Positions 56,754 through 62,413 of a stretch of DNA of 64,000 nucleotides are shown here, in pieces. The translations under genes and the position numbers were made by a program. Location: the NCBI RefSeq assembly GCF_000970205.1, contig NZ_CP009512.1, forward strand, positions 1,922,001 through 1,986,000. The letters are read 5' to 3'. Positions within the stretch are counted from its first letter, which is position 1; each line of letters begins with the position of its first letter. The notes under the pieces were generated by a model. The model worked only from the letters and a program-made list of their open reading frames with translations, made no database searches and was not told the origin of the DNA. The stretch comes from Methanosarcina mazei S-6 (GTDB lineage: Archaea > Halobacteriota > Methanosarcinia > Methanosarcinales > Methanosarcinaceae).

Positions 56754-57269
56754 CTGAAAGCGCTCGTATTCGGAGCTGATGGTTTCGAGGATGTTGAACT
56801 TATTTATCCTTACCACCGTTTGAAGGAAGAGGGCATAACCACACACGTGGCTTCAATGAAGAAAGGAAAGATAAAAGGAAAGTACGGGTATGATGTAGAG
56901 GTTGATATCGCATTTAAGGATGTGAACCCTGAAGATTACGATATCCTTGTAATATCCGGAGGGAAAGGGCCCGAAAAAATGAGGCTGGATAAAGATGCAC
57001 TTGAGATCACAAAACACTTCTTTGAAAAGAACAAGCCGGTCGCTGCAATCTGCCACGGCCCGCAGGTCCTGGTCTCGGCAGGCGTAATAAAAGGAAGAAA
57101 AGCTACCTGCTGGATAGGGATAAGAGATGATATCATAGCTGCAGGGGCGCTTTATGAAGACAGTGAAGTCGTTATTGATGGGAACTTCGTTTCTTCAAGA
57201 AGTCCTGATGACCTTTACGCCTTCGGAAGAGAAATGATAGCTATTTGTAATCATTTGTCTCAAAAATAG
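56754..57269 (+). CDS. PfpI/DJ-1 family protein, apparent CUG start
   Basis: 171 codons, the usual family length. The frame opens CTG-AAA-GCG, giving KALVFGADGFEDVELIYPYHRL, the first strand and conserved Glu of the fold. The nucleophile is Cys100 in AAICHGPQVLVSAG. No ATG, GTG or TTG occurs at the expected N-terminus; GGGGGGA six bases before CTG is an excellent ribosome site. Starting at the TTG at 56820 would delete the first strand. Likely a deglycase, protease or chaperone-like stress protein. Stop is TAG, backed up by TAA two codons later. Confidence 0.8.
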   Translation: MKALVFGADGFEDVELIYPYHRLKEEGITTHVASMKKGKIKGKYGYDVEVDIAFKDVNPEDYDILVISGGKGPEKMRLDKDALEITKHFFEKNKPVAAICHGPQVLVSAGVIKGRKATCWIGIRDDIIAAGALYEDSEVVIDGNFVSSRSPDDLYAFGREMIAICNHLSQK

Positions 57270-57381
57270 TTTTAAATGTTATGAGTGTTTTGGGATGCTT
57301 TGAAATATTGTAAAAAGTAAATTTCTTGTGTTCTTAATTAAAAAGAAAAATTCTTATGCTTTAACTGTTTTTAAGAATTAG

Positions 57382-57394
57382 GTGTTGTGTCTTG
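57382..57394. repeat. 13-bp direct repeat, left copy (GTGTTGTGTCTTG)
   Basis: The same 13-mer is found at 60382-60394, so the copies bracket the two-gene island. The left copy ends in the TTG start codon of the TPR-nitrilase gene. Confidence 0.6.
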
Positions 57395-58717
57395 GACTCG
57401 GAAAACAATAACTCACTACGAGACAAGGACACTGCATTAAACGAGAAACTCTATGAGTTAAGAGATAATGGAATTTATTTAAACTCTTTACGACAATATG
57501 ATGAAGCTATCGAGTGCTTCGATCAAGCTCTTAAAATCAAATCTGAAGATAGTTATACTTTAATATTAAAGGGTATTTCTTTAAGTTTTTTGAATCGACA
57601 TGATGAAGCAATTAAATGTTTCGATCAAGCTCTTAATATAAAATCTAATGATAATTATTCTTTAATATGTAAGGGTATTTCTTTAAGTTTTTTAGGACGA
57701 TATGATGAAGCTATTAAATGTAACAGTCAAGCTTTTAATATCGAGATTCAATCTGACAACAGTGATGAGAATTTAAATTCAAATGAAGAAACAAGTTGTC
57801 ATCAATATATTTCATTCAATCAAGATAATTCTACTAAGAGTTCTGAATTTTTTTTTAAACCTGTAGATATTACCTCGGTTACACTTTCCGAAAACAAAAG
57901 AACTGTCGTAAAAGTTGCTGCAATACAACTTGATTTTAAATTATCTACAAAAAGTTTCCCATTTCAAATCATTAATAAAACAGAGTTAAAAGCTAAAGTT
58001 CTTAAAGCTTTGGAACAAGCGAGTAAAAGAAATGTTGACATTGTATGCCTCCCGGAGTTATGTGTATGCGAAGAATGGCTTCCACTGATCCAAGCGGTAT
58101 CTAAGGATATGGTAGTGATTGCCGGAAGTTATTATGATGCTAAAAGACACAATGTTTGTAGGCTCGTGATAGATTCAAAAGTAATTGATTATTCACAGAT
58201 GAAAATAAATCCTTCATCTCTCGAAAAAGGAACTTCATATAAAAGCCTGATGACCTCTGGAGATAAATTATACATTTTTAAGACAAAGGTTGGAATATTG
58301 TCCATACTTATTTGTAGGGATTTTCTTAACTATTGTCACTTCCTTCGCGATTTTGTAGATATTATCTTTGTTCCTTCCTACAATAGAGAAATAAACTTTT
58401 TTCAAGAAACTGCACATGTTAACGTCAAGGCCAGTCGCACATATGTTGTTATATCAAATACATCTGTCTATGGGGGTACTTCATTGTTTGGGATAGTTCA
58501 TAAGGAAAGTCATAATGAGTTCATAGATAAAGGGTTTAAAAGGGAAGGAGACGACACTTATAAAGTGTGTGAACTAGAAGCTGGAGTGGAGGGTATTATT
58601 ACCGCAGATTTGAATCTAGTTTTCAAGGCTATCCAAGTACCGAGTTTAGCTAACTCCTTTAGAGACCCGCTGCCTGTTTCGAATATAGATAAGGAAGTGA
58701 TAAATTTTTTAATTTAA
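57392..58717 (+). CDS. TPR repeats fused to a nitrilase-superfamily (CN hydrolase) domain
   Basis: 441 residues, TTG start. Residues about 15-120 carry three TPR repeats (YDEAIECFDQALKIKSED and near-identical copies). A linker (120-165) leads to a CN-hydrolase domain (about 168-430): VAAIQLDF, then the catalytic triad Glu222 (CLPELC), Lys271 (YSQMKINPSS) and Cys308 (LICRDFLN). The fold hydrolyses or forms amide C-N bonds. A TPR fusion suggests the enzyme is recruited by or controlled through another protein. AT-rich and unlike the flanking housekeeping genes. The next gene starts 50 bp on and is likely co-transcribed. Confidence 0.85.
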   Translation: MDSENNNSLRDKDTALNEKLYELRDNGIYLNSLRQYDEAIECFDQALKIKSEDSYTLILKGISLSFLNRHDEAIKCFDQALNIKSNDNYSLICKGISLSFLGRYDEAIKCNSQAFNIEIQSDNSDENLNSNEETSCHQYISFNQDNSTKSSEFFFKPVDITSVTLSENKRTVVKVAAIQLDFKLSTKSFPFQIINKTELKAKVLKALEQASKRNVDIVCLPELCVCEEWLPLIQAVSKDMVVIAGSYYDAKRHNVCRLVIDSKVIDYSQMKINPSSLEKGTSYKSLMTSGDKLYIFKTKVGILSILICRDFLNYCHFLRDFVDIIFVPSYNREINFFQETAHVNVKASRTYVVISNTSVYGGTSLFGIVHKESHNEFIDKGFKREGDDTYKVCELEAGVEGIITADLNLVFKAIQVPSLANSFRDPLPVSNIDKEVINFLI

Positions 58718-58767
58718 AGCAAAAACCACTAAAATAAATAAAATTACAATGTCGGATAGTGATAAAC

Positions 58768-60309
58768 ATGAAAACAGATAAAACTCAATATAGAAGCAAT
58801 GACAAATCAGCTTTTAATTCAACTCTTGATCAAATTTTATCTTTACTCCAAACACAACAGGAAATTCTTCAAGAAACGTCAAATATTAGTAAAGAAATCT
58901 TGGATTCTAATAAGGAAATCATACAATCAGAGAATGATTTGAAAGAAGAAACATTAAAGATAATGAAAGTAAATTTTCTGTCGTTATTAAACCAAACCCA
59001 AGAGAATATTCGTCAAATTACAATATCAGATATTAACAAATATAGATCTGAAAATGATATAGAAAGATCAAAAATTAATGAAAAAATTTTTGAACTTAAT
59101 ACAGAGATCTTACGAGCAGAAAATACTTTCAAAGAAGAAATATCAAACATAATGAAAGTAGGTCTTAATGAATTATCGAATGAATTATCAAAAAATTTGA
59201 TCTCTAATCTTTCAATTGGAATGACATATAGTGAGTCCATTTTTGGGAGTAGGTTAAGCCATTTCTTTTACGAGAAAAAAGCGATAGCTAAGAAAATGAT
59301 TGATATTCTACATCAGGAACTGACAGCTAATAAACAAAAGAAAATTTGTCTTTTAATCGACTCTGGCACTACTACTTATCATCTATTTAGCGAAATATGT
59401 GATAAAATCAAGAAACCTAGTGACACTGATGATGAAATTAATCCTTGGAAAGATCGAGTTTTTATAATTACTAATAATTTGCCAGGAATTCAGCATTTTA
59501 TAAACCATTGCAGAAAAGGATCTGGTGAATATTCTGATTTGTCTATTAAATGCTTTCTTCTTCCTGGGAAACCTCTTCCAGTATATGCGGCTGTGACGGG
59601 TCCTGAAGCAATTGCTTTTATGAATAAAGCTCGTGTCAAACAGCTTATAAAACGAGAACTGAAAACAGAAAATGATACTGAGTACCAAATAATAAGTCTC
59701 ATGTCTGCGAATTATATTGTTAGGCATCCAAAAGAAATTGACAGTAAGATAATTTTTTGCCCTACCGCTAGAGGAGGAGGAAAAGGTGGACATTTTGAGA
59801 TAAAAGAAGAATTTGCCAAGTTAAGTGATAAAATATACTTGATTTCTCCATTAACAAAACTATCGTTTGCCACATGTGAGTGTCTCAATAAAATAAATGA
59901 ACTTACGATTGATGAAGAAAAAATCCCTGAGGATTTAAACGAATATCATGACAAAGTTAAGTATCGTGAAATTAAATTAACAACTCCTGAATTAATAGAA
60001 AAATGCAATTTCGTCTTAACTGACAGAAAAAACACTGATACTTTTGGGGATTTTGCACATGATATTCTCTTAACATTAAAGAACTCTTATGGAGAAAATA
60101 AAATACATATTGCAGATTATGATTTAGGAGCTTGGATCCCTAATGGGACGAAGAACCCTGAGTATTATAAAATTGCAATGGAAATGGAAATACCTCATGA
60201 GAACCTGAGAAATGCATACTATCGAAATAAAAAAATTAATGATCATTTTATATGGGCTCATAACTGGATGATAATTGACGAAAAGTGCAGACAAGGAGAT
60301 CACATGTAG
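58768..60309 (+). CDS. Coiled-coil protein with DeoR-sensor/ISOCOT-like C-terminal domain
   Basis: 513 residues from ATG 58768; an in-frame GTG lies three codons earlier. Residues about 15-150 are coiled coil with an internal duplication (SENDLKEETLKIMKV and AENTFKEEISNIMKV). The C-terminal part (about 170-500) has LLIDSGTTTYHLFSEI (Asp198), ITNNLPGIQHF and LLPGKPLPVYAAVTGPEAIAF, the pattern of the DeoR sensor and sugar-phosphate-isomerase (ISOCOT) fold, with large inserts and no helix-turn-helix. Possibly a ligand sensor or enzyme acting on a sugar phosphate or nucleotide. Stop is TAG-TAA. Confidence 0.7.
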   Translation: MKTDKTQYRSNDKSAFNSTLDQILSLLQTQQEILQETSNISKEILDSNKEIIQSENDLKEETLKIMKVNFLSLLNQTQENIRQITISDINKYRSENDIERSKINEKIFELNTEILRAENTFKEEISNIMKVGLNELSNELSKNLISNLSIGMTYSESIFGSRLSHFFYEKKAIAKKMIDILHQELTANKQKKICLLIDSGTTTYHLFSEICDKIKKPSDTDDEINPWKDRVFIITNNLPGIQHFINHCRKGSGEYSDLSIKCFLLPGKPLPVYAAVTGPEAIAFMNKARVKQLIKRELKTENDTEYQIISLMSANYIVRHPKEIDSKIIFCPTARGGGKGGHFEIKEEFAKLSDKIYLISPLTKLSFATCECLNKINELTIDEEKIPEDLNEYHDKVKYREIKLTTPELIEKCNFVLTDRKNTDTFGDFAHDILLTLKNSYGENKIHIADYDLGAWIPNGTKNPEYYKIAMEMEIPHENLRNAYYRNKKINDHFIWAHNWMIIDEKCRQGDHM

Positions 60310-60381: not shown

Positions 60382-60394
60382 GTGTTGTGTCTTG
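60382..60394. repeat. 13-bp direct repeat, right copy (GTGTTGTGTCTTG)
   Basis: Matches 57382-57394 exactly, 73 bp after the end of the coiled-coil gene and 20 bp before the IS1634-type element. Confidence 0.6.
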
Positions 60395-60413: not shown

Positions 60414-62005
60414 CCTGACTTTGACAGTAATATAAAAATAAGTGCTCTTTGTTTTGTGTTGTTTGGTAAAATGAACATCACAAAACATAGAGCCTTCCCT
60501 ACAATTCCTAACAAGAATATATGTGTTCCTATCGGACCGATTCTTGCCGTCCAACTCTTTTATGAAAAGCTTAATTTCTGTGACATTTTTAGCAAGCATA
60601 AAAGCAAAGGTCTTGACCTCAATAGTTTAATAATCGGTTTGTTAAGCTATAAATTAACTGAGAATTTCAGTATCAAAGAAGCTGGCAAATGGTTAAATCA
60701 GAAAGAGATTCTCGATATCTTAAATCTTGAACAGTTTCATGAAAGAGTTCTTTACAGAACTCTTGAACTTTTAGGACGTAACAGAGAGGAAATTCTCTCT
60801 GATATTCTGGATTCTCTGTTTTCTGTATACGATTTTGAAGAGACAGATATAAACCTGGATTGGACGAGTATAGTTCTTTTCGGAACTAAATCCAAACTTG
60901 GTAAATACGGGTATAGCAGAGATTACAGACCTGATAAGCTACAGATAACCGTTGGAATTAGTGAATTAGCTAATCCCATTAACATTCCTATTGGAGTTAC
61001 AGTGAATAGAGGAAACGTTCTTGATCTGGAGCATTTCTCTGACACATATAACCAGGTAAAAAGTAAACTTAAAAAAGGTTCTCTTATTATTTTTGATAAA
61101 GGAGCTAATACCACTGATAATCTCAAGAGTATACAGGATGCTGAGATGGAATATCTCACTGCCATGAAACTGAATACAAGTGACGATAAAATAATAGAGA
61201 ACTTTTATCTGGAAAAAGCAGAACTAATAGATTCCGAAAAAGGTATATATGGGATAAAAATCGTCAAGCCTAGCAGCATCAAATACTTATATTTCTCTGA
61301 ATCTTTACAGAAAAGACAGTTAGAGGCAAAAGCAAGAGCTGTTATGAGGAAGTTAAAGGAAGCAAAAGAGATTCAGAAAGCTGTAGTAAACAAGAAAAAG
61401 CTTCCTAAGAAATTCAGAATAAATAATGAATTGATTGAGATTGATTACTCTTTTAAAACTAAGCTCGAAGAGCTTAGTGACGACGAAGCTATTGAACTCC
61501 TTAAAGCTTCACTGATTAACGGAAGAGAAGGATTTTTTTGTCTGAAATCAAACAGGAATTTGACACTTCAAGATGCGTTAGTAACATACAGAAAAAAGGA
61601 TTCTATTGAGAAAATATTCCATTCATTGAAAAACGAAATTCAGATTAAGCCGTTAAGAGTGTGGTCGGAGGATAGCATTTATGGAGCTATTATCCTTGGA
61701 TTTATCGCTCAATTATTCATATCGCTGATGCGATATGAATTTGAAGAGCTAAAACACACCTCTACAAAATTCATTAAAAAAAGCTTGAAGAATTTGACAC
61801 TTACAATCAAGTTCAGGATAAATGGCGTCAAAAACTATATTTTTGCGAATTTTGACAGGATCAATAGCTTAATAGTAGCAAAAAGGAATGGAATTACATA
61901 GAATATGTAAGAAATTTTTATAAAATTGAACGAATTGTCAAGTCAAATTGGGACAAAAAAGAAGGGAAAATAAAGTATCAATTAGTGGTAACTGTCAAAC
62001 TTAGG
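60414..62005 (+). mobile_element. IS1634-type insertion sequence (IS4 superfamily), complete, 1592 bp
   Basis: Inverted ends CCTGACTTTGACAGTAA (left) and CCTAAGTTTGACAGTTA (right, read inward) match at 14 of 17 positions. A 6-bp target duplication ATACAA flanks the element (60408-60413 and 62006-62011). One intact transposase gene lies inside. Perfect duplication suggests recent movement into the edge of the accessory island. Confidence 0.9.
60471..61901 (+). CDS. IS1634-type DDE transposase
   Basis: 476 residues from ATG 60471. Catalytic acids: Asp in NLDWTSIVLFG, Asp in IIFDKGAN and Glu in YRKKDSIEKIFHSLK (the Y-(2)-R/K-(3)-E-(6)-K block of the IS4 superfamily). GYSRDYRPDKLQI is typical of this group. 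The frame is intact. It ends TAG, with an in-frame TAA three codons later, so pyrrolysine read-through would add only three residues. Confidence 0.93.
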   Translation: MNITKHRAFPTIPNKNICVPIGPILAVQLFYEKLNFCDIFSKHKSKGLDLNSLIIGLLSYKLTENFSIKEAGKWLNQKEILDILNLEQFHERVLYRTLELLGRNREEILSDILDSLFSVYDFEETDINLDWTSIVLFGTKSKLGKYGYSRDYRPDKLQITVGISELANPINIPIGVTVNRGNVLDLEHFSDTYNQVKSKLKKGSLIIFDKGANTTDNLKSIQDAEMEYLTAMKLNTSDDKIIENFYLEKAELIDSEKGIYGIKIVKPSSIKYLYFSESLQKRQLEAKARAVMRKLKEAKEIQKAVVNKKKLPKKFRINNELIEIDYSFKTKLEELSDDEAIELLKASLINGREGFFCLKSNRNLTLQDALVTYRKKDSIEKIFHSLKNEIQIKPLRVWSEDSIYGAIILGFIAQLFISLMRYEFEELKHTSTKFIKKSLKNLTLTIKFRINGVKNYIFANFDRINSLIVAKRNGIT

Positions 62006-62200: not shown

Positions 62201-62413
62201 TATATTTAATAAAATATAAGGTAAAATGATCACTAATACTATTCATTTGGAAGAGAAATGATTAAATTGCTGAAATAAAGAAGAAATATGTTCTGTTTTT
62301 AACTTCTTTCTTTTACTTTAATCATTTCTCTTTTTAATGGGCTTTTTAACTACTCTTTTCAGTTCTTTTGAGCTTCTTTTTCTTGAATTAACATCTCCCC
62401 GGATCTTCTGCAG

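Follow-up and report, generated by a model that had tools for sequence, protein, structure and literature searches.

A TPR-nitrilase and a coiled-coil protein with a predicted DeoR-like domain share an inserted segment in Methanosarcina mazei S-6

In the window, the stretch of 64,000 nucleotides analysed here, two adjacent genes of Methanosarcina mazei S-6 encode a TPR-nitrilase (gene 1) and a coiled-coil DeoRC-like protein (gene 2), and both entered as a cassette of ~3.4 kb at the 3′ end of pfpI. The two-gene unit is a new arrangement, in which a known effector stands beside a rare and unnamed sensor-like family. At roughly even odds (a probability of about 0.5), we read it as a small mobile conflict cassette that combines a nitrilase effector with a DeoRC-like sensor and serves as an abortive-infection module. 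The exact pair was found here only, and each half turns up elsewhere with different partners of a defence type. We infer both a defence role in M. mazei S-6 and a joint function for the two genes, on the evidence set out below.

A mobile segment at the 3′ end of pfpI

The open reading frames of the window place the two genes on the same strand with a gap of 50 bp (Table 1), just as a first-pass annotation of this DNA had described them. Nine relatives of the genus have an empty site, at which pfpI continues directly from its 3′ end into the homologue of window position 62246 onward. The two genes occupy 2.9 kb of the cassette once the IS element is subtracted. Because both are missing together in the relatives, joint arrival is suggested, and this is the best evidence for their acting together.

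Table 1. Features of the inserted segment and of the two genes that it carries (window coordinates).
Feature	Coordinates	Strand	Remarks
Left copy of 17-bp direct repeat	57222..57238	+	3′ end of pfpI; left edge of insertion
Inserted segment	57239..62245	.	5,007 bp, ~3.4 kb minus later IS; empty site in nine genus relatives
TPR-nitrilase gene (gene 1)	57392..58717	+	441 aa, TTG start
Three TPRs	57458..57763	+	also seen as three 102-nt DNA repeats
Nitrilase domain	57872..58708	+	residues 161-439; E222, K271, E278, C308
Coiled-coil DeoRC-like gene (gene 2)	58768..60309	+	513 aa, ATG start; GTG at 58759 possible upstream alternative
Long helix / duplicated coiled coil (predicted)	58801..59211	+	residues 12-148
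ISOCOT (DeoRC-like) domain (predicted)	59248..60111	+	about residues 161-448
IS1634-family insertion sequence	60414..62005	+	transposase 60456-61901; terminal repeats CCTGACTTTGACAGT / ACTGTCAAACTTAGG, duplicated ATACAA
Right copy of 17-bp direct repeat	62246..62262	+	16/17 identical to left copy

Site-specific integration by an integrase was considered and set aside: the segment holds no integrase gene, and no mechanism can be read from the 17-bp repeat by itself. The left edge of the insertion (window 57225-57302, about 80 bp made up of ~64 bp of insert and 14 bp of the 17-bp repeat) recurs intergenically in at least three further Methanosarcina genomes (L110, L118 and L119), a hint that a repeat mediated the insertion. 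Inside this recurring sequence lies a short inverted repeat, AAATGAT...ATCATTT.

The fresh insertion sequence reported beside the genes is an IS1634-family element of ~1.59 kb. Its insertion is recent, as judged from a second copy elsewhere in the genome that is 99.5% identical and from the 6-bp target duplication, ATACAA, on both sides, and the element entered after the cassette. The island setting noted at first pass was upheld, and the AT-richness was borne out for the two genes (GC 0.31, against 0.40 for the window), but the native DNA immediately downstream is likewise AT-rich (0.33). On either side of the two-gene unit, at 57382-57394 and 60382-60394, stands a 13-bp direct repeat, GTGTTGTGTCTTG, whose copies match exactly; gene 1 has its TTG start codon within the left copy. 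A second nitrilase gene, starting at 60382 and broken by the IS, was considered on account of a gene 1-like succession of GTGTTGTGTCTTG and GCAATACAA, and was rejected when tblastn beyond the IS found no nitrilase remnant.

In another relative (G008, L114), the open reading frames downstream of the same pfpI gene read as a P-loop (KAP-like) NTPase and as a DUF262-like protein, and conflict genes may thus have inserted at this site repeatedly. Searches of plasmid and phage collections matched neither protein of the pair, and viral contigs likewise gave no match.

A nitrilase domain behind many triggers

Gene 1 combines its TPRs with a CN_hydrolase domain that scores 24.1 bits against a Pfam cut-off of 23.2. 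The unit had been presented as undescribed, and for this half that does not hold: the nitrilase is not of a new kind, and its family is already in PADLOC. Residues 163-434 match positions 182-454 of 457 in PDLC01989 (CARF_m7--CARF_nitrilase), the nitrilase half of that model, at 1.1e-85, and the protein also matches RT_UG5-nitrilase at 7e-17. The Glu222-Lys271-Cys308 triad noted earlier is present, and conservation among relatives, proposed as a check on it, was found: the catalytic E/K/C residues are kept in 25/25 aligned family members and the second Glu (E278) in 24/25. The N-terminal half of the protein is TPR, with no CARF match among Pfam and PADLOC profiles, and a profile search found no reverse transcriptase domain in either protein.

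Across the relatives searched (60, then 238), we found 22 close homologues of the nitrilase in 17 genomes, plus a few distant ones. In fused proteins the nitrilase is always C-terminal and the N-terminal part varies, the partners being DUF4062-NACHT-HEAT, CARF, CARF with TPR, TIR with TPR, HEAT, reverse transcriptase and KaiC, and, in a distant homologue, an AsnC ligand domain. In three genomes (G005, G014 and G117; loci L029, L031 and L077), nitrilase proteins stand in tandem directly after csm genes, next to csm5, each pair combining a CARF-nitrilase with a TIR- or CARF-TPR-nitrilase. The loci of G005 and G014 gave matches to Cas10, Csm2, Csm3 and Csm5, and that of G117 to Csm4 and Csm5; repeat arrays adjoin the G005 and G117 loci. 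These tandem genes place the family among the ancillary effectors of type III-A CRISPR systems, and those in Methanosarcinaceae type III-A loci are likely to form a two-tier nitrilase effector of cyclic-oligonucleotide signalling.

The family profile also matches the solved structure of DRT1 (PDB 9yfd, 7.5e-6), as well as a metabolic protein of the nitrilase superfamily (2vhh). DRT1 uses its nitrilase as an abortive-infection effector, which is switched by oligomeric state (PMC13275509). Among the fusions in the family, one is an 822-aa protein (G127, L081:7433-9901) that joins a retron-like reverse transcriptase to a nitrilase domain, with RT_III-A and RT_XIII as its best PADLOC models and no Rfam RNA detected at the locus; another joins a KaiC-type ATPase to a diverged nitrilase domain (G108, L082:8344-9996). 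In the family tree the window nitrilase groups with NACHT-HEAT, reverse transcriptase and lone copies, at a fork supported by only 89/99. Its branch is long, so it may be drifting.

A DeoR-like domain behind a coiled coil

Gene 2 residues 12-148 are predicted, at low-to-medium confidence, to form a single uninterrupted helix, with a heptad signal that peaks at residues 15-56. The coiled-coil duplication described at first pass was recovered as a 111-nt DNA repeat, 74% identical, with a spacing of 63 codons. No family profile scores above its cut-off on this protein, the best being DeoRC at 17.2 bits (E 0.005) against a Pfam cut-off of 31.8, and a sequence search of the PDB gave no match. A model of the C-terminal domain built from four sequences (pLDDT 73, pTM 0.79) is closest to the sensor domain of E. 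coli DeoR (7l6l), with Z 15.2 and 2.5 Å over 183/183 residues; ribose-5-phosphate isomerases and eIF2B give Z 9-10.5. In a Foldseek search with the model RpiA ranks first, at 1e-4, and hhalign of the gene 2 family gives 94.1% with seven DeoR-family C-terminal domains (five from E. coli and two from other genomes) and 1.7% with RpiA. On the model and the profile comparison, then, the domain is predicted to have an ISOCOT fold closest to the DeoR sensor domain, in agreement with the first reading of the sequence. That reading also held that a helix-turn-helix is absent, and none was predicted or matched by profile.

Five members of the family share invariant D-x-G-T-T, T-N-N-L-P-G and L-L-P-G motifs and a late lysine, and all of these except L-L-P-G align with DeoR motifs in hhalign. 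By analogy with DeoR, the invariant motifs would bind a phosphosugar-like ligand. The family also has invariant residues of its own, R-G-x-G-H and E-I-P-H, which could be catalytic. These polar residues lend something to a reading with the roles reversed, whereby the ISOCOT protein is either the toxin or an enzyme for the synthesis or removal of a sugar-phosphate signal, and its ligand is produced or cleared by the nitrilase; the ISOCOT fold includes many enzymes, and the best Foldseek rows are ribose-5-phosphate isomerases. The hhalign profile, however, agrees with DeoR sensor domains and not with RpiA, and in a relative in which the domain is fused to NB-ARC it is placed C-terminally, where STAND proteins usually carry their sensor. 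We regard reversed roles as improbable.

Still less probable, in our estimate, is an ordinary metabolic pair of an amidase and a sugar-phosphate-responsive regulator for the use of nitrogen compounds. Nitrilase-superfamily proteins are mostly metabolic and DeoR proteins regulate sugar use, but the window nitrilase falls in a defence branch, gene 2 lacks a DNA-binding domain, the surroundings hold no gene for a transporter or a pathway, and the segment is missing in relatives.

Four relatives of gene 2 were found, none of which adjoins a nitrilase. One (G004), of 508 aa, has a hydrophobic stretch and a coiled coil, and its neighbours, as read from open reading frames, are type I restriction genes. 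The second (G020, L025:4581-7442) is an HD-CE--NB-ARC protein of 953 aa that carries the DeoRC-like domain C-terminally, an unusual STAND arrangement; this domain is 37% identical to the ISOCOT domain of gene 2. The third (G090, L046:8309-11792) is a 449-aa TM/coiled-coil DeoRC-like protein encoded 190 bp downstream of an EEP-family (Exo_endo_phos) gene, possibly another enzyme-sensor pair. The fourth, from a betaproteobacterium, is a 445-aa protein at a contig end, with no match in the plasmid collection. A weak match in G043 (9e-4) was dropped, as it contains eight internal stop codons. No new members appeared in the phylum (393 genomes), nor in the class (369) or order (399) of the betaproteobacterial relative; the whole-collection scan used two peptide patterns only and will have missed members. 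The family is rare in what was searched and is unnamed. In the papers searched we found neither ISOCOT in a defence context nor DeoR-type sensors in STAND systems.

Occurrence of the pair

The nitrilase family is present in 17 and the gene 2 family in 4 of the 238 genomes of the class, and the window genome alone has both, where chance would give 0.29 shared genomes (P of at least one shared, 0.26). The pair is therefore not a conserved system in what was searched. The first-pass annotation had suggested a two-gene system and had named near-absence of co-occurrence as its own refutation; near-absence is what these counts amount to. They also agree with a somewhat unlikely alternative, in which the two genes are separate conflict parts that share a segment by chance, the nitrilase answering to its own TPRs and the DeoRC-like protein working alone, as its lone relatives seem to. 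The G004 homologue of gene 2 has no nitrilase beside it, and nitrilase relatives occur without gene 2. Against chance carriage stand the 50-bp gap and the common strand, a cassette with little else in it, and the pairs that relatives of gene 2 form with genes for other enzymes.

For the abortive-infection cassette, the supporting evidence is as follows. The nitrilase matches PDLC01989, its family is linked to CRISPR, NACHT, TIR and reverse transcriptase proteins, and its E/K/C residues are invariant; the ISOCOT domain is DeoR-like, is fused to HD-CE--NB-ARC in one relative and lies beside apparent type I restriction-modification genes in another; and both genes share one segment that is missing in nine relatives. 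The link to conflict systems proposed for these genes has thus gained ground, through the effectors of type III-A CRISPR loci and DRT1-type proteins on the nitrilase side and through the HD-CE--NB-ARC fusion on the other. The reading is weakened by the lack of a second pair in the 238 genomes, by the long and perhaps drifting nitrilase branch, and by the possibly catalytic residues of the ISOCOT family.

Proposed mechanism and significance

We propose that the DeoR-type ISOCOT domain of gene 2 would bind a phosphosugar- or nucleotide-like ligand that is altered on infection. The long coiled coil may then meet the TPR platform of gene 1, either turning the nitrilase on or holding it off, and activation of the nitrilase would probably proceed through oligomerisation. 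Once active, the enzyme would hydrolyse a vital small metabolite of the amide or nitrile type, and growth would stop. More tentatively, gene 2 and its relatives may represent a new class of conflict sensor, cytoplasmic or membrane-tethered, in which a DeoR sugar-phosphate-binding domain is coupled by a coiled coil to interchangeable effectors (the nitrilase here, HD-CE--NB-ARC and EEP-family proteins elsewhere), and a phosphosugar- or nucleotide-like metabolite would be the alarm that triggers a defence nitrilase.

In Methanosarcinales, one catalytic nitrilase domain stands behind CARF, TIR, NACHT, reverse transcriptase, HEAT, KaiC and TPR triggers, including in three type III-A CRISPR loci. 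A small stand-alone TPR-nitrilase could be a good handle on the substrate of the defence nitrilase. If the DeoRC-like partner is a sensor, it would extend the small-molecule alarm sensors of prokaryotic immunity to a sugar-phosphate fold.

Comparison with known systems

With the CARF_m7 nitrilase (PDLC01989), a cOA-type effector of type III CRISPR, gene 1 has the nitrilase domain in common, at 1e-85 over the C-terminal 270 residues and with all catalytic residues kept. Unlike that effector, it has three TPRs in place of CARF and lies outside any CRISPR locus. The highest identity to the window nitrilase, 50-54%, is found in the DUF4062-NACHT-HEAT-nitrilases of other Methanosarcina (L026 and L027), which are single STAND proteins of 1,466-2,005 aa, whereas the window has a 441-aa TPR protein and a separate partner gene. 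The DRT1/UG5 reverse-transcriptase-nitrilase (PDB 9yfd), an abortive-infection effector, is a distant homologue of the gene 1 nitrilase; since the window pair has no reverse transcriptase, its activation must differ.

Gene 2 is modelled with the same fold as the DeoR-family regulators (PF00455; E. coli DeoR, 7l6l) over 183 residues and has the D-x-G-T-T and T-N motifs in common with them. It differs from these regulators in having a long coiled coil, with a TM-like stretch in some relatives, where they have a helix-turn-helix, and in scoring below the Pfam cut-off; an RpiA-type isomerase does not fit its sequence profile (hhalign 1.7%). The HD-CE--NB-ARC--ISOCOT protein of another Methanosarcina (L025) resembles gene 2 in its ISOCOT domain, but there the domain forms part of one STAND protein, and no nitrilase accompanies it.
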